From positions 6,657,001-6,721,000 of the forward strand of contig NZ_CP054698.1 of the NCBI RefSeq assembly GCF_014023275.1: DNA of 64,000 nucleotides, given 5' to 3'. Below are positions 44,113 to 52,577 of the stretch, piece after piece. Within the stretch, counting starts at the first letter, position 1; each line of letters begins with the position of its first letter. This DNA is from Nostoc edaphicum CCNP1411 (GTDB lineage: Bacteria; Cyanobacteriota; Cyanobacteriia; Cyanobacteriales; Nostocaceae). A program made the position numbers and the translations under genes. Under the pieces are notes generated by a model. That model was not told where the DNA came from and searched no databases. It saw only the letters and a list, made by a program, of their open reading frames with translations.

Positions 44113-45693
44113 TTAATTACCAATTTGGGGCGCACTCAAAGAAACCTTTAGTGTGTCATCTTTTTGCTGTGCTAAAGTCGGCACGGAATCACGCAATCTT
44201 GCCGTCAATTGTACAGTTGTAGCGTCGTACATCTGAGTCAGCAATTTTGGATAGAAACCAATACCAATAATTGGAATTAACAAACAGGCAATGATAAATA
44301 CTTCACGGGGTTCAGCATCTATCAAAGCTTGATGAGAAACTAATTCCTCGTTCTCTTTACCGTAGAAAATTTCTCGCAACATCGACAGCAGATAAATCGG
44401 AGTTAAAATCACTCCCACTGCCATCAAGAACACCACGATAACTTTGAAGGTAGAGCTATAAGCATCGCTAGTAGCAAAGCCGACAAATACCATTAATTCT
44501 GCCACGAAACCGCTCATCCCTGGCAATGCCAAAGAAGCCATTGAACAGGTAGTGAACATGGCGAAAATCTTCGGCATTCTCTTAGCGACACCGCCCATTT
44601 CATCCAGCATCAGGGTGTGGGTGCGATCGTAAGTTGCGCCAACCAGGAAGAACAAACTCGCCCCAATTAACCCGTGGGAAACCATTTGCAATACTGCCCC
44701 ACTCAATCCCAAATCGGTGAAGGAGGCAATACCAATCATCACAAAGCCCATGTGAGAAATTGAGGAGTAGGCAATTTTTCGTTTGAGGTTTCGCTGGGCA
44801 AAGGATGTCAAGGCAGCGTAGATGATATTAACTACCCCCAAAACTACCAATACTGGCGCAAAATAAGCGTGAGCATCGGGGAGCATTTGGGCATTCATCC
44901 GAACTAAGGCATAACCGCCCATTTTCAGCAGAATACCTGCTAATAACATGTGTACGGGGGCTGTAGCTTCACCGTGGGCATCAGGTAGCCAGGTGTGCAA
45001 GGGAATAATCGGCAACTTGACAGCGTAGGCAATCAGGAAGCCAGCATAGAGGGCAAGTTGGAAATTCAGGGCAAAATCTTTTAAGGCGATCGCTCTCATG
45101 TCGAATGTCACCGTATCGCCGTAAAATCCCATTGTCAGGGCAGACAGCAAAATAAACAGCGAACCGCCGGCTGTGTATAAAATAAATTTGGTCGCTGCAT
45201 ATTGCCGCCTTTTGCCTCCCCAAATCGACAGCAGAAAGTATATCGGCACCAGTTCGAGTTCCCACACCAGGAAAAACAACAGCATATCCTGGACAGCGAA
45301 CACGGCAATCTGACCGCCATACATCGCCAAAATCAAGAAGTAAAAGAGCTTGGGCTTGAAGGTAACAGGCCAAGCTGCTAAAATCGCCAGCGTCGTAATG
45401 AATCCAGTCAAAATAATTAGGGGCATGGATAAGCCATCTGCCCCTACTGACCAATTCAAACCCAATTGTGGTACCCAAGGGTAACTTTCCACCAACTGCA
45501 AATCTGGATTGGAGAAATCATACCCAGTATAAAAAGCATAAACAATTAGTGCAAAATCTATCAGCCCCACGATGAGGGAGTACCAGCGCACTGTTTTGCC
45601 TTCTTTGTCAGGGATGATGGGAAGAAGTAGCGATGCGGCTATCGGAAACAGAATAATCGTCGTCAGCCACGGAAAATTAGCTATATTCATCAC
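44113..45693 (-). CDS. ndhD: NAD(P)H-quinone oxidoreductase chain 4 (NdhD)
   Basis: 526 residues, about 14 membrane helices. It is the MrpA/NuoM-like proton-pumping subunit of the thylakoid NDH-1 complex, which oxidises ferredoxin and reduces plastoquinone in respiration and cyclic electron flow. Conserved motifs include [23 protein letters not shown] (Glu in a membrane helix), [37 protein letters not shown] and [19 protein letters not shown]. Because ndhF1-type ndhF lies upstream on the same strand, this is most likely NdhD1 of the NDH-1L form. In Anabaena relatives the two genes are adjacent; here 4.8 kb separates them. Start ATG 45693 is also preceded by no strong ribosome binding site. 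Confidence 0.92.
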
Positions 45694-46168
45694 AATTAGT
45701 CTGCTATCAAAATCATGTTTGGCAAAAAGTCACTAGTTATTAAGTAACAGCTTTTTGGGGATTTCGTCTTCCTCGTTAGGTTGATTTAATTAAATTGGCA
45801 ATCCCCGGTTTCTGCTGTTGGGAGTCTCTTTTGACCTTTAGGCGTGCGGAATGTGGGTTGTGATACTCCCAGTCAAGTCAAAAATTTACCCTAAAAAAGT
45901 TGGTAAAATTCTAATTTAGGGGTGCGATGTCTACGATAAGCCGCTCCGCGTCTATGCGTAGCCCAACCCTAAAAATGCAAAATGCTGTTTGGTGGTTGTT
46001 GAAAAAAGCGATTTAGTGCAAAAAAGCATAGCAGGAGAAATAACACTATGATAATCGCACAAATTGAAAGTCATTTTTCCGGCTTTAGAGCTTTGGGACT
46101 ACAGTAGGCGATTTGATTGAGTTTTTTTAGTAAAATAGACAGGGAAAGTTGATAAGGGAAATTCGATT
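45694..46168. other. Intergenic region with a short gene remnant
   Basis: 475 bases that should hold the ndhD promoter. It includes a copy of the GCGATGTCTACGA-type palindromic repeat at about 45924-45965 and the first copy of a 105-base duplicated segment (listed separately) whose last part encodes the short start MIIAQIESHFSGFRALGLQ at 46048-46107. Confidence 0.55.
45971..46075. repeat. Duplicated 105-base segment, copy 1
   Basis: Runs from AAAAATGCAAAATGCTGTTT to ATGATAATCGCACAAATTG and beyond. A similar copy is at 46402-46506; about four in five positions agree. Both end in the start of a small frame with MIIAQIES and then diverge. Confidence 0.7.
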
Positions 46169-46375
46169 ATGTCATCTCCAGCGATCGCTACTGTAATTAA
46201 GATGATGGAATCTTTATCTGAAGATGTGCAAGAGAAAGTTGCAGAACATCTCCGAGAGTACCTAGAAGATTTGCAAGATGAATTGAAATGGAATAAATCA
46301 TTTAACAAAACTCAACAACAACTGATTGCATCTGCCCAATCTGCTAAAAGAGAGATTTTGCAAAGCTTACCTTGA
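46169..46375 (+). CDS. Small antitoxin-like helical protein
   Basis: 68 residues: VIKMMESLSEDVQEKVAEHLREYLEDLQDELKWNKSFNKTQQQLIASAQSAKREI. Such short, highly helical proteins with ESLSEDVQEKVAEHLREY are frequent in cyanobacterial genomes beside small RNase-like toxins and are often called antitoxins. No toxin follows. It is enclosed by the two copies of a 105-base segment, so it may be one member of a decayed toxin-antitoxin cluster. Confidence 0.7.
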   Translation: MSSPAIATVIKMMESLSEDVQEKVAEHLREYLEDLQDELKWNKSFNKTQQQLIASAQSAKREILQSLP

Positions 46376-46401
46376 GCGATCGCGGAGCTTAACTCATCGC
46401 T

Positions 46402-46506
46402 AAAAATACACGATGCTGTTTGCTGATTGTTGGAAAAAGCGATTTGGTGGAAAAAAAGTATCACAGTAGAAGTAGCCATAATGATAATCGCACAAATTGA
46501 AAGTCA
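46402..46506. repeat. Duplicated 105-base segment, copy 2
   Basis: Second copy of the segment at 45971-46075. It ends with ATGATAATCGCACAAATTG at 46481-46499 and the frame MIIAQIESQIRDIN, closed by a stop at about 46525. Confidence 0.7.
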
Positions 46507-46616
46507 GATTCGTGACATAAATTAGCTAGTGTGCCTAACTCATCCTACGATTACTAATGCTGATTATCTTGTATGTTACAACAGTGTAATAACTAGATAC
46601 TTAGCATCTCCAAAAT

Positions 46617-47832
46617 ATGGCACTCAAAAAAGTTCGTCATTCTCACATCTCTGCCGAAACCCCTGAAGCACTTTTCCGAGATATTAAAAATAAACAATCT
46701 AAAGGACTGATTTCTCACCAAGCTGACTTACTTAGAGATTACTGCAAGCCAGAAATTCTCAATCTACCAAATGTTGCCTTACAACTTCCAACAGGTAGTG
46801 GTAAGACACCAGTCGGGCTTCTGATTGGAGAATGGCGACGTTGCCGTTTTAATGAAAAAGTAGTGTATCTATGCCCTACTCGTCAGCTTGTTAATCAGGT
46901 AGTTGAGCAATCATTAACTATTTTTGGGATAAAAGCAAATGCCTTTACAGGTAGACAGGCTGAATATACTCCTACTATCAAGGCTGAGTATACCAATGCC
47001 GAAACTATTGCTGTCACAACTTATAGTGGTTTATTTAATACAAATACTTTCTTTAACAACGCCGAAATAATAATTCTTGATGATGCTCATTCTGCTGAAA
47101 ATTACATAGCAAAATATTGGTCTATTTCAATTGAGCGAAATAATCCTACACATAGCACTCTTTTTAAAGCTTTAGTTTCGGCTATGCGTGGGATCGTTCT
47201 AAATGAACACTACTCCAGGTTGATTTCTGACTCTCCTGATTTAGGAGATATTCAATGGGTTGAAAAGATACCTACTCCATTCTTGTATGAAAGACTTGAA
47301 GAAATAACTAGAATACTAGATGTACATATTAAGGATATAAACGACTTACAGTATTCTTGGTCTGTTCTAAGAGATCACTTATTTTCATGCCATATATACA
47401 GCAGCTATCACTCTATATTAATTCGTCCTGTTTTACCACCTACTCGTACTCATCAACCATTTTATAATCCTAAACAACGTATATATATGTCTGCTACATT
47501 AGGAGAAGGAGGAGAACTAGAAAGGCTCGCAGGTATAGAAAAAATAGTTCGTTTACCAGTTCCAGAGGGATGGGATAAACAGGGTATTGGTCGTCGATTT
47601 TTCTTTTTTCCAGAAAGGTTTCTTGATGAACAAGCTGCACTCAATCTTGCTGTAGATATGATCAAAGAAACACCAAGAACTCTCGTCCTTGTCCCGAATG
47701 ATTCTACTGTAAATAAACTTGGAGAACAGATATCTACAGCAACTAATTATAAAATATTTAATGCTAATGAAATTGAGCAGTCAAAGCAGACTTTTATATC
47801 TGAGTCAGAAGCAGTAGCTATAGTTGCAAACC
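46617..47832 (+). pseudogene. SF2 helicase, N-terminal part (gene split by IS insertion)
   Basis: Codons 1-405 of a helicase that continues at 49026. Motif I is LPTGSGKTPVGLLIGEW, motif Ia YLCPTRQLVNQVV, motif II IIILDDAHSAENY (DDAH in place of DEAH) and motif III IYMSATLGEGGELERL. The form is closest to XPD/DinG-like SF2 helicases, but the four-cysteine iron-sulphur cluster of those proteins is not seen. The fragment ends at SEAVAIVAN. Removing the element and one target copy (47833-49025) joins the codon c|ga to give RYDGIDLGG in frame. In the present genome the open frame runs on into IS sequence to 48179, so a truncated helicase may still be made. Start ATG 46617; opposite strand to the ndh genes. 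Confidence 0.9.
47824..47832. repeat. Target-site duplication, left copy
   Basis: TTGCAAACC, identical to 49017-49025 on the other side of the IS element. Confidence 0.92.
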
Positions 47833-49016
47833 CAGAAGTGTTGAACGGTAAGAAAAATCCGATAAAAATAGCCCAAAATATGGTATTTTTGGGCGAAGGC
47901 TTAAACTATATTAGTTTGATTGTGATTATAAATTCATTTCCCAAAATTGTCAAAGATATCTTGAAAAGCCTGCCAAAAAATGATTATCCAGTATTGAATA
48001 GTCGTCTATTCTTTGAGTGCTGGCTATCCTATGCTCTGGATAATAGCTTAACAAGTATGCGAGATTTATTTAAGAGATTAAACAATACAGGATTTGAGGT
48101 AGATATTTCTACTTTTTCTAAAGCAAATTTACATCGAAGCCAAAAACAATTTCAAGGAATTTACCAAAAAATTAAATGAATTAGTACAGAAGAAAATTCA
48201 CAAAAAATTACACGATAAATATGCTATTTGTCCTATTGATTCAACAATTATTACCCTGACAAGTAAATTGTTATGGGTTTTGGGTCATCATCAAGTCAAA
48301 CTTTTTAGTTCTTTGAATTTAGCTACAGGTAGCCCAGAAGATAACTTGATCAATTTTGGACATGATCATGATTATAAATTTGGTTCCAAGATGATGTCTA
48401 GTCTCCCAACTAATGCTGTAGGGGTAATGGATAGAGGCTTTGCGGGATTAAAATTCATTCAAGAATTGGTACAAGAAAACAAATATTTTGTTTTGCGGAT
48501 TAAAAACAATTTCGTTACTAGAATTTGAGGATGCAACTGGATTAGTCAAAGTAGGTGCATCTGATGAGGCTATTGCCTATAGAGTCATTAATTTTTTGTG
48601 ATTTAGAAACGAAAACTGAGTTCCGCTTAGTGACTAATTTACCAAAGTCGGGAGATGCAGCTGTTAATGATGATGAAATTAGGGATATTTATCGATTACG
48701 TTGGGGAGTTGAACTCTTGTGGAAGTTTTTAAAGATGCACTTAAAACTTGACAAATTAATTACCAAAAACGTCAACGGTATCACCATACAAATTTACGTT
48801 AGTTTAATAGCTTATCTGATTTTACAGCTTTTATCTATTCCCGCACAATGGGGACATACACTATTAGATAAATTCCGCTATTTGCAATCTTGTATGTGTC
48901 AGAAAATCAGCTATGTTCATTGGTTTGAGGAGATGATGTTATGTTGACTAATTTAGCCTTTTTAGAGTTAGTGCAACTATCTATGTAAAGTTTTGTATCA
49001 GCATTCAACATTTCTG
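47833..49016. mobile_element. IS4-type insertion sequence, 1184 bases, inside the helicase gene
   Basis: The ends are inverted repeats: CAGAAGTGTTGAA at 47833-47845 against TTCAACATTTCTG at 49004-49016 (12 of 13 pairs match). Both sides are bordered by the 9-base duplication TTGCAAACC. The interior codes for a DDE transposase of the IS4 family, which is broken by frameshifts. The length fits a one-gene IS. The perfect duplication suggests a fairly recent event, yet the transposase is already damaged; a copy could have been mobilised by another transposase. Confidence 0.92.
47880..48947 (+). pseudogene. IS4-family transposase with at least three frameshifts
   Basis: The protein runs through three frames: FPKIVKDILKSLPKNDYPVL ... 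QGIYQKIK (frame of the helicase), then CPIDSTIITLTSKLLWVLGHH ... VMDRGFAGLKF, then CDLETKTEFRLVTNLPKSG ... YRLRWGVELLWKFLK. The first break is at about 48169-48174, where six A occur and five would keep the frame; the second is near 48515-48530; the third is an extra T at about 48590-48598. The DDE residues (PIDST, VMDRG) and the Y-x2-R-x3-E-x6-K signature are all present. The start codon is unclear: the best conserved start region reads ATA in place of ATG, and ATG 47880 is a possible upstream start. Confidence 0.85.
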
Positions 49017-49025
49017 TTGCAAACC
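49017..49025. repeat. Target-site duplication, right copy
   Basis: TTGCAAACC, identical to 47824-47832. Confidence 0.92.
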
Positions 49026-50431
49026 GATATGATGGCATTGATTTAGGAGGCGATGAATGTCGTCTCTTAATAGTAAAAGGACTACAAAAAGCAATAAATC
49101 TTCAGGAAAAATTTCTCTTAACACGAATGCCAGCAAGTATTCTTTTTAATGACCGTGTGTTAACTAGAATCGTTCAGGCAGTTGGTCGCTGTACAAGAGC
49201 AGATAATGACTATGCCGCAGTGGTAGTGCTTGGAGAAGAATTGAATAAATTTTTACTAGATAAGAATAAAAGAAAATTTTTACATCCAGAAATTCAAGCT
49301 GAGATAGAGTATGGAATTGAGCAATCTAAAGTTGTTGAATCGTCCGAATTTATTGAAAATTTGCAAATTTTTCTAACACATAAAGAAGAATGGAATGAAG
49401 CAGAGAAAGATATTATAGATTCGAGAGATAAATTAGAACAATTTAAACTTCCAGGCATAGATAAATTAGAGGCATCTGTTGCTCATGAAGTTAGATATCA
49501 AGAGGCACTTTGGAGCGGCAATTTTGAAAAGGCAGTTGAAGAATGTCATTCTGTATTAAGTTCGCTTAGTGGAGATGATGTTAAAGGATATAGAGCCTTT
49601 TGGTACTACCTTGCTGGAAGTGCAGCCTGGATAGCAGCAAAACGCGGTATTGCTTCTATGGAGGGAGTAGCCCGTGAATTGTTTAAGCGTGCTGCTTCTA
49701 CTACTGAAGGAGTTAGTTGGCTCTATCAACTCTCTAAGTTGAATTTAGAAGAAAATCAAGAAAATCAAGCTGATAAATTAAGACTGACTTCTGTAATTGA
49801 AGGACTAGAATCACAATTGTCACTATATGGCAATTTCAATGATAAAAAGTTTGAAGCAGAGGTAAAAGCAATTCTTGTGAATCTCCAAAGAGTAAAAGAT
49901 ACTAACGAAGACTCCAAAGCCTTTGAAAATGGTCATGAAAGATTAGGGCGTTTATTGGGTTATCAAGCTGGAAATTCAAACGGAGATGCTGACCCAGACC
50001 CCTGGTGGATTGCTTATGATGATTTTTGTATTGTATTTGAAGACCATTCAACTAATAATCATGGAAATTCACTAGGAGCAGGCAAAGTTAGACAAGCGAC
50101 TTCACACCCTAACTGGATTAAACAGAATATTTCATCACTTCGCCAAGATTCAGAAATCATACCTGTTGTGGTTACACCTTGTAAAAGTATTACGAATGGT
50201 GCAAAGCCTCATACACAAGACTTGTGTTATTGGAATCAGCAGGATTTTCAAGCCTGGGCTGAAAAAGCAATTACTGTAGTACGTGAACTAAAACGTAGTT
50301 TTCCTGGTGAAGCTAACTTGGAATGGAGAAAACTTGCTATGCAAGCTTATCAAGATAATAGTCTTGACCCAGCATCCTTAGCAAAAAATTTACGCGAACA
50401 GAAATTAGCTAATCTCCCAATTATTGGATAG
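49026..50431 (+). pseudogene. SF2 helicase, C-terminal part with possible nuclease-like end (gene split by IS insertion)
   Basis: The reading frame continues from the N-terminal fragment: RYDGIDLGGDECRLLIVKGL (motif V), then RVLTRIVQAVGRCTRADNDYA (motif VI). After the helicase core follows a helical region (about 49300-49920), then a C-terminal domain with DPDPWWIAYDDFCIVFEDH, LGAGKVRQATSHPNWIKQNI and IIPVVVTPCKSITNGAKPH. The order D...ED...K recalls a PD-(D/E)XK fold, but I cannot assign it firmly. An open frame with ATG 49127 could give a 434-residue protein lacking motifs I to V. The uninterrupted protein would have 873 residues. Confidence 0.85.
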
Positions 50432-50471
50432 TTAAGAAGTAGGGGTGGACGATCGCCCGCCCCTATGAAAA

Positions 50472-52577
50472 TCAGGTAACACCAAAGACAATCACTAAGC
50501 CCAAAACCGCCCCAAATACAATTAGGGCATAGAATTGAGCGCGACCGTTTTCTAGGTACTTCAGACCTTCACCGCTAACAAGGGTGAAAAAGCCTGTGAG
50601 GTTAACAGCACCATCGACAACGCGGAAGTCAACTTCCATAACTTGTCTAGCTAGGCGACGCAAGCCGAGGACAAAAACCCGATGGTAAATGTCATCAAAG
50701 TACCACTTGTTGAGAGATAACTCGTAAAGTGGTTTGATTTGAGCAGCGATCGCAGCCGGGTCAATTTTACGACGTAAATACATCAGCGAAGCCAGGGTAA
50801 TCGCAATTAAAGAAATTCCGACTGAGGCACCCGCCATGATGTAAAATTCCGTCGGATTGAACTCGGCAGCCTTTTCTATAACTTCGGAGAGGGTTTCGCT
50901 AGGAGGAAAGATAAACTCTTCAAAATAATTGGCGTAGGGAGTTCCCACCAAACCAATCAAAATAGAAGGCACAGCTAACAGTGCCAACGGCAGGGTCATT
51001 GTCCACGGCGATTCGTGGGGAGAGTCGCTGTGATGCCCGTGGGAGTCATGGGAATCATGCTGCTGACTAGTTGCCGCCAATTCTCCTTTCTTCATCGCCC
51101 CAGGCCCAAAATTCGGCGCTAGTTCTTCTGACTCTAATTCCAGGACAATTGTGGCCGCAGCTTTCTTGAGTTTTTCCTTGATTTTCTCGTCAGTACCCCG
51201 GAATTTACCTTCAAATGTCATGAAATACATTCTAAACATATAGAAAGCAGTAATCCCGGCAGTTAGCCAGCCGATGAACCAGAGGAGTGGATTAGCCTCA
51301 AAAGCCTTCCCCAGAATTTCATCTTTTGACCAGAAGCCAGCAAAAGGCGGAATACCAGAAATTGCCAAGCAACCAATCAAAAAGGTAATTGAGGTGACGG
51401 GCATATATTTCCGCAGTCCACCCATCAAGCGCATATCTTGCGCTAAGGCCGGGTCGTGTCCAACAACACCTTCCATGCCATGAATTACTGAACCTGAACC
51501 CAAGAACAGCATCGCCTTGAAATAGGCGTGGGTCATTAAGTGGAATAGTCCAGCACTGTAGGAACCGATTCCCATTGCCATCACCATGTAGCCAAGTTGG
51601 GAAATGGTGGAGTAAGCCAAGCCCTTTTTGATGTCGTTTTGGGTAATGGCAATGCTAGCCCCCAAAAACGCCGTAAACGCCCCAGTAAAGGCAATGACAT
51701 TCATTGCGACAGGGACGCCTTCAAATACTGGGTACATCCGGGCAATGAGGAAAACACCCGCTGCCACCATTGTTGCCGCGTGAATCAAGGCAGAAATGGG
51801 GGTGGGGCCTTCCATTGCGTCTGGTAGCCAGACATGGAGAGGGAATTGGGCTGATTTTGCAACTGGCCCTAAGAAAACTAAAATCGCAAACAGGACAGCG
51901 AGAAAATTGCTGATGGAACCTGATTCTACGAGTTGGGCGAGGCGATCGCCCATGATATTAAAATCAAAGCTTCCTGTTGCCCAGAATAGTCCCAAAATGC
52001 CGAGTAACAAACCAAAGTCGCCTACGCGGTTGGTTACAAACGCTTTTTGCGCCGCATCTGCTGCTGACTTGCGATCGTACCAAAAGCCGACCAGCAAGTA
52101 GGAACACATCCCCACAAGTTCCCAGAATATATAAATCTGTACTAGGTTGGGGCTGATCACCAGACCTAACATTGAGGAGCCAAATAAACTGAGATAGGCG
52201 TAAAACCTCACATAACCGGGATCGTGAGCCATGTAGCCATCGGTGTAAACCATGACTAAGCAGGCTACCGTGGTTACAATCACCAGCATTAGGGCTGTCA
52301 GGTGGTCGATAGTGTAGCCCATGCTCAGGTGAAAATTACCTGCTGCCGCCCACTCAAAGGTGCGGAGATAAGGCGCATGTCCTTGAATTTGACTCCACAA
52401 CAAGGCAAACGACAGCCCCATAGCTGCTGCCATCATGGAGATAATCACCACAGCATTGAACTGCCGTAGGCGGTTTGTCACCTGATTCAACGAGATTAAC
52501 CCTAGACCGACCAGCATTGCCCCAAAAAGAGGGAACACCGGAATCAGCCAGGCATACTGATAGATTACTTCCATCAC
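50472..52577 (-). CDS. ndhF: NAD(P)H-quinone oxidoreductase chain 5 (NdhF)
   Basis: 701 residues with about 15-16 membrane helices and the long lateral helix near the C-terminus. It is the NuoL-like proton-pumping subunit of thylakoid NDH-1. Family motifs are FFAYLSLFG-type YAYLSLFGSSMLGLVISPNLVQIYIFWELVGMCSYLLVGFW, FPLHVWLPDAMEGPTPISALIHAATMVAAGVFLIARM and IKKGLAYSTISQLGYMVMAMG. Its size and context with ndhD suggest NdhF1 (NDH-1L). A soluble loop near residue 500 is rich in His and Ser (SQQHDSHDSHGHHSDSPHE), possibly metal-binding but probably neutral. It starts at MM (ATG 52577 or 52574). The next gene downstream on this strand is ndhD, 4.8 kb away. Confidence 0.94.
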   Translation of the reverse strand: MMEVIYQYAWLIPVFPLFGAMLVGLGLISLNQVTNRLRQFNAVVIISMMAAAMGLSFALLWSQIQGHAPYLRTFEWAAAGNFHLSMGYTIDHLTALMLVIVTTVACLVMVYTDGYMAHDPGYVRFYAYLSLFGSSMLGLVISPNLVQIYIFWELVGMCSYLLVGFWYDRKSAADAAQKAFVTNRVGDFGLLLGILGLFWATGSFDFNIMGDRLAQLVESGSISNFLAVLFAILVFLGPVAKSAQFPLHVWLPDAMEGPTPISALIHAATMVAAGVFLIARMYPVFEGVPVAMNVIAFTGAFTAFLGASIAITQNDIKKGLAYSTISQLGYMVMAMGIGSYSAGLFHLMTHAYFKAMLFLGSGSVIHGMEGVVGHDPALAQDMRLMGGLRKYMPVTSITFLIGCLAISGIPPFAGFWSKDEILGKAFEANPLLWFIGWLTAGITAFYMFRMYFMTFEGKFRGTDEKIKEKLKKAAATIVLELESEELAPNFGPGAMKKGELAATSQQHDSHDSHGHHSDSPHESPWTMTLPLALLAVPSILIGLVGTPYANYFEEFIFPPSETLSEVIEKAAEFNPTEFYIMAGASVGISLIAITLASLMYLRRKIDPAAIAAQIKPLYELSLNKWYFDDIYHRVFVLGLRRLARQVMEVDFRVVDGAVNLTGFFTLVSGEGLKYLENGRAQFYALIVFGAVLGLVIVFGVT

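Follow-up and report, generated by a model that had tools for sequence, protein, structure and literature searches.

Hna brings about abortive infection with one protein, a 3'-5' exonuclease of single-stranded DNA that is restrained by ATP and activated by the single-stranded DNA-binding protein (SSB) of a phage, and its substitution K729A in S. meliloti abolishes nuclease activity, as passages of PMC13381803 describe. PDC-S28 appears in PADLOC as an unpublished candidate phage-defence gene (PMC11811056, in part). The IS4Sa subgroup of the IS4 family of insertion sequences (IS), as outlined in sections of PMC2266710, has elements of 1150-1750 bp with ends CA------T, a YREK signature and target duplications of 8-10 bp, the transposase of the family being a single frame. 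The stretch considered here (the window) is 64,000 nucleotides of Nostoc edaphicum CCNP1411, positions 6,657,001 to 6,721,000 of contig NZ_CP054698.1, and in it an IS4Sa-like element has, with high confidence, broken a laterally acquired Hna-like gene, a candidate for defence, in a variable interval between ndhF and ndhD.

As an insertion, this is ordinary in kind. Its weight beyond the routine comes from the broken gene being related to a phage-defence helicase-nuclease, from the broken copies in four of the six sampled family genomes that hold the gene, and from an interval between two photosynthesis-linked genes where toxin-antitoxin and defence genes seem to accumulate in the genus. An earlier, sequence-only reading of the window had already described a helicase gene split by an IS element; the Hna-like identity, the broken copies in relatives, the variable interval and the probable assembly errors in the transposase are new beyond it.

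Insertion into the helicase gene

The gene, the element and their boundaries lie as follows:

46617..47832, + strand: 5' part of the Hna-like helicase gene, 405 codons and the first base of codon 406
47824..47832, + strand: left 9-bp target duplication TTGCAAACC, from sequence and copy comparison
47833..49016, + strand: IS4-family element (IS4Sa-like), 1184 bp in the window copy, from its ends, its copies and family features
47833..47845, + strand: left terminal inverted repeat CAGAAGTGTTGAA, 12/13 pairing
49004..49016, - strand: right terminal inverted repeat, CAGAAATGTTGAA as read on the minus strand, 12/13 match
49017..49025, + strand: right 9-bp target duplication, from sequence and copy comparison
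49026..50431, + strand: 3' part of the Hna-like gene, the last two bases of codon 406, 467 codons and the stop

The word TTGCAAACC thus stands on both sides of the element as a direct duplication. By itself it is just mildly enriched, with four occurrences in the window against 0.86 expected; its placement is telling, because both copies abut exactly the two ends of the element, CAGAAGTGTTGAA and TTCAACATTTCTG, which pair at 12 of 13 positions. The genome holds 21 full-length copies of the element (40 of 65 first-look candidates were scored), and 20 of these, the window copy included, were compared, with L063 treated separately. Exact 9-bp duplications occur at the same ends in 17 of the 20 and also in L063 (a 97% copy), and a chance repeat was ruled out on this recurrence together with the exact abutment. 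Three copies (L004, L007 and L010) have no 9-bp duplication at their ends, and no swapping of flanks among them was seen by eye.

The flanks, joined by script from 47832 to 49026, form one 873-codon frame with just the terminal stop, and the split codon becomes CGA, for Arg406. A homologue search with the window open reading frame (ORF), using words from residues 1-405, found 3057 proteins, and 115 of the best 120, which are those listed, have matches to the 5' as well as to the 3' piece, every one of the 115 with exactly one residue between the two matched pieces. The other five of the 120 are 294-388 amino acids long and have no match to the 3' part. The two pieces have 88% and 90% identity to P0001, the nearest among the listed homologues. 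At the DNA level, the relative L179 reads ATAGTTGCAAACCGATATGATGG, with the target present once and unfilled. Over the 20 compared, copies within the genome have 0-5 substitutions relative to that of the window, and the insertion looks recent because one of them (L002) differs by indels only, with zero substitutions.

The sequence-only reading therefore had the exact duplication, its coordinates, the 1184-bp length, the 12 matching pairs of the inverted repeats and the 873-codon join right. Its claim of a recent insertion is borne out by the homologues across the join, by the unfilled target and by the near-identical genomic copies, and intact homologues dissimilar across the join, which it had named as contrary evidence, were not found among the 115. 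As for its further claim on precise excision, the arithmetic is correct, in that removal of the element returns the gene to one frame; no observation shows excision taking place.

Could the assembly have misplaced a repeat copy here, frameshifted transposase and all? Repeat errors do occur in this assembly, with single-base gains in 16S copies and 46 such gains over the 20 IS copies. However, the exact duplication lies outside the element, at the window locus and at 16 other compared loci, the outer ~280 bp of the element are free of length variation, and the flanks match an uninterrupted homologue, so that misplacement is extremely improbable.

We instead conclude that a mobile IS4-family (IS4Sa-like) element inserted by transposition at codon 406 of an accessory gene, duplicating 9 bp of target. 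This gene encodes an Hna-like helicase of SF2 whose C-terminal domain is nuclease-like. Its 5' part carries a Walker A motif (GSGKT from residue 60) and DDAH from residue 155, and its 3' part the remainder of the second helicase domain and the nuclease-like domain. The insertion falls in the codon of the invariant Arg of NRYDGID and cuts the second helicase domain. Since the 5' part now runs into transposase sequence and the 3' part is left without the ATP-binding site, the split product is most likely non-functional.

A separate observation is that the helicase frame continues stop-free into the transposase (ORF 46617-48179), so that a fusion is encoded; the chance of this is about one in three.

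Relation to Hna

Both window pieces match the PADLOC profile PDC-S28, and the intact homologue P0001 does so at near full length (residues 12-867 to profile positions 16-842 of 846, E 7.1e-114), the window copy differing in being broken. No functional test of any protein named PDC-S28 was found in the open-access literature searched. For a structure model of P0001, built from 61 homologues, the best solved structural match is Hna (9yhn), over the whole length, which points to a shared whole-protein fold, and the profile match to the Hna chain has an E value of 1.1e-59. Like Hna, the gene would encode a single protein of ~850 amino acids with SF2 helicase domains and a C-terminal PD-(D/E)XK-like domain. 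The motifs GSGKT, DDAH, SAT, NRYDGID and QAVGR are found in the window pieces and are conserved in the 61 homologues, but are severed in the window. Hachiman HamB, Cas3 and CRISPR DinG were rejected as identities, their PADLOC matches being weaker and Hna being ahead in the structure comparison. Sather et al. 2023 is a reference cited for Hna.

Apart from the interruption, the gene differs from Hna at the residue essential to the nuclease domain, since K729 of S. meliloti Hna aligns with a histidine:

50045..50047, + strand: codon CAT (His746), aligned with K729, the lysine that the nuclease of S. meliloti Hna requires

Because the catalytic lysine is replaced, the gene is named Hna-like and not filed as Hna. 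Asp730 is invariant and Glu744 is present in 60 of the 61 homologues. Lys759 is nearly invariant and might substitute for the nuclease lysine.

Several points weigh against the overall account. Residue 746 is His in 45 and Lys in five of the 61 homologues, and with His at the catalytic position it is uncertain whether the protein is a nuclease, and so whether it works in the manner of Hna. The protein shares about 20% identity with Hna, a defence activity of the window gene is suggested by its relatives only, and an uninterrupted allele from the same species was not seen. If the relation to Hna extends to function, the intact gene would act as a single-gene, phage-SSB-triggered abortive-infection defence. 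Since the gene is Hna-like, the insertion breaks a candidate abortive-infection gene.

It is also conceivable that the split gene is still active, either through a freed 3' half with the nuclease-like domain or as a helicase-transposase fusion. Both halves are open and without further lesions, and S. meliloti Hna is toxic when the balance of ATPase and nuclease is disturbed (PMC13381803, in the passages concerned). However, the helicase motifs are cut at an invariant residue, the nuclease lysine is absent, and recency by itself accounts for the intact frames. Continued activity is thus highly unlikely, and loss of function by the insertion remains the preferred explanation.

In the open-access literature searched, there was nothing relevant by title on Hna in cyanobacteria, and none was found on Hna with insertion sequences or on structure 9YHN. 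The same genome encodes a second, distant helicase of ~840 codons (L052, G000:C6:2903323-2903928), 26-28% identical to the Hna-like gene.

The ndhF-ndhD interval and copies in relatives

The Hna-like gene is located in the interval 45694-50471, between two genes that we take to be ndhD and ndhF:

44113..45693, - strand: ndhD, one border of the variable interval
50472..52577, - strand: ndhF, the other border
46169..46375, + strand: ORF of 68 amino acids, antitoxin-like, called solely by position in relatives

The corresponding interval was taken from 20 of the 38 relatives searched (L137-L156). Both border genes are found on 17 of these 20 stretches, where they lie 233 to 5826 bp apart; in two others no ndhD occurs over some 7.4 kb, and in one the contig ends early. 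Across the genus genomes, the interval thus measures 233 bp at the least, in the genome closest by ndhF (G016), and over 7 kb at the most. Cargo in the relatives includes genes for HicA, ParE, ParE-like, DUF4258, HEPN and nucleotidyltransferase proteins, parts of type I restriction-modification systems and PD-T4-6, with weaker RelE-like and MqsA-like matches, while four of ten large cargo proteins in these intervals have no PADLOC family. The interval is therefore a probable collecting site for toxin-antitoxin and defence genes, and the content of the relatives' intervals, with their toxin-antitoxin and restriction-modification genes, shows the Hna-like gene to be laterally acquired cargo. On such a toxin-antitoxin hotspot between ndhF and ndhD in Nostoc, nothing relevant by title was found in the open-access literature searched.

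An indication of movement comes from Spirirestis rafaelensis, where a 3' remnant of the Hna-like gene, without its 5' part, lies in the same interval beside a RelE-like ORF (L121, 5990-7083). In bins over 49335-50384, the remnant shares 97-100% identity with the window gene, against 69-93% in bins of the neighboring ndh genes, and on this comparison the gene has probably moved recently between genera.

Within the family, the gene is present, with an E value of 1e-50 or lower, in six of 192 genomes, this one included. It is intact in two (G112 and G224) and broken in four, in different ways. Besides the window genome there is G093, of another genus, in which a 1380-bp element of the ISAs1 family, accompanied by a 10-bp repeat, interrupts the gene around codon 126 (L179, 4387-5766); this element is unrelated to that of the window. 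G169 retains only residues from about 510 onward, and shares with the Spirirestis locus L121 the 100-base stretch that was tested; G199 has just the first ~250-280 residues. In the order as a whole, 15 of 388 genomes match, again counting this one. Of the nine that lie outside the family and reach at least 54% identity, seven carry the gene as one open frame, and the others have an in-frame stop (G518) or a gene split over contigs (G489). When both of the latter are counted as broken, breakage is not significantly commoner in the family (4/6) than elsewhere in the order (2/9; Fisher p 0.14). This count excludes six matches of 34-39% identity (G401, G441, G469, G275, G482 and a second locus of G491), and the comparison covered the Hna-like gene alone.

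A broader scenario is possible, if doubtful. There might be a distinct cyanobacterial Hna-like clade with His in place of the nuclease lysine, the lysine having perhaps moved to Lys759, or nuclease activity being absent, and in the family of the window this costly defence gene, once laterally transferred (in some cases into a defence hotspot bordered by ndhF and ndhD), might have been broken repeatedly, both by truncation and by IS elements unrelated to one another.

In one relative (G009, L152), the counterpart of the 68-residue ORF lies next to a gene for a ParE-like toxin, which the window lacks; the ORF itself matches no antitoxin profile at its cut-off. A direct repeat (45969-46073 and 46400-46506, 83% identical) flanks this ORF, and its second copy is directly upstream of the Hna-like gene.

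The element and its split transposase

At 1184 bp, with ends CAGAAGTGT and a 9-bp duplication, the window element is within the length, end and duplication ranges of IS4Sa given above, and the Y-2-R-3-E-6-K signature is present in the last of three transposase fragments:

47880..48179, + strand: transposase fragment 1, in frame with the helicase, with a presumed start codon
48268..48528, + strand: transposase fragment 2, a mechanically called ORF
48555..48947, + strand: transposase fragment 3, a mechanically called ORF with the signature YRLRWGVELLWKFLK

For a copy in a relative (L066), the transposase reaches 190.9 bits against NCBIfam transpos_IS4_1, for which the cut-off is 115. The difference from the family, which PMC2266710 describes as single-frame, is that the transposase is split in all 21 full copies of this assembly. 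In the relatives, it is in one frame in eight of the ten copies that could be aligned (one of the eight, L071, is partial) and split in two (L065 and L070); L074 gave no alignment and was left out.

Why does the frame look broken? The 46 one-base gains over the 20 copies fall at nine homopolymers, all within element positions 281-892. Of homopolymers of at least four bases, 9 of the 18 in this interior vary, as against none of the 15 in the ends (Fisher p 0.0014, with a boundary set after the data were seen). None of the nine gains is present in 11 comparison copies, ten of them from other genomes. Three 16S copies of the same genome (L122, L123 and L124; 1491, 1499 and 1499 bases) also differ by single-base gains, which fall in stretches that are presumably highly conserved. 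Unequal 16S lengths recur in two of three comparison genomes (G007 and G002, but not G061). In unique coding sequence, about one isolated homopolymer gain was found in 33,011 aligned bases, by visual assessment of 24 out-of-frame gap events, of which the others were clustered or compensated. Internal gains are present in a four-copy element (L053-L056) and in the pair L057/L058. Passages of the Polypolish paper describe homopolymer errors that persist in repeats after short-read polishing.

The nine homopolymer sites are thus quite likely assembly errors, and the frameshifts in the window element are probably for the most part errors of this kind, limited to repeats. The alternative is that the frameshifts are real and the transposon is dead or frameshift-regulated. 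Two two-copy elements (L059/L060 and L061/L062), compared pairwise, have no internal gains, so that some repeats are unaffected, and one frame shift, considered below, is not a homopolymer change. Against this stand the confinement of the gains to the interior, their absence from the comparison copies, the gains in 16S, the near-absence from unique coding sequence and the polishing errors known from repeats, which together make real frameshifts unlikely. Decay of the transposase as the main cause of the split frame was rejected on the distribution of the gains, the comparison copies and 16S. Split transposases in this assembly should not be taken at face value.

Assembly error does not account for the non-homopolymer segment AACAATTTCGTTACTAGAATTTGA (window 48505-48528), which shifts the frame, is common to 20 of the 21 full copies and occurs, within one mismatch, in none of 52 other genus genomes. 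The copy L020, on contig C5, carries the relatives' version of this segment, and the shared segment may have been spread in trans by L020, or may reflect frameshifting or something else.
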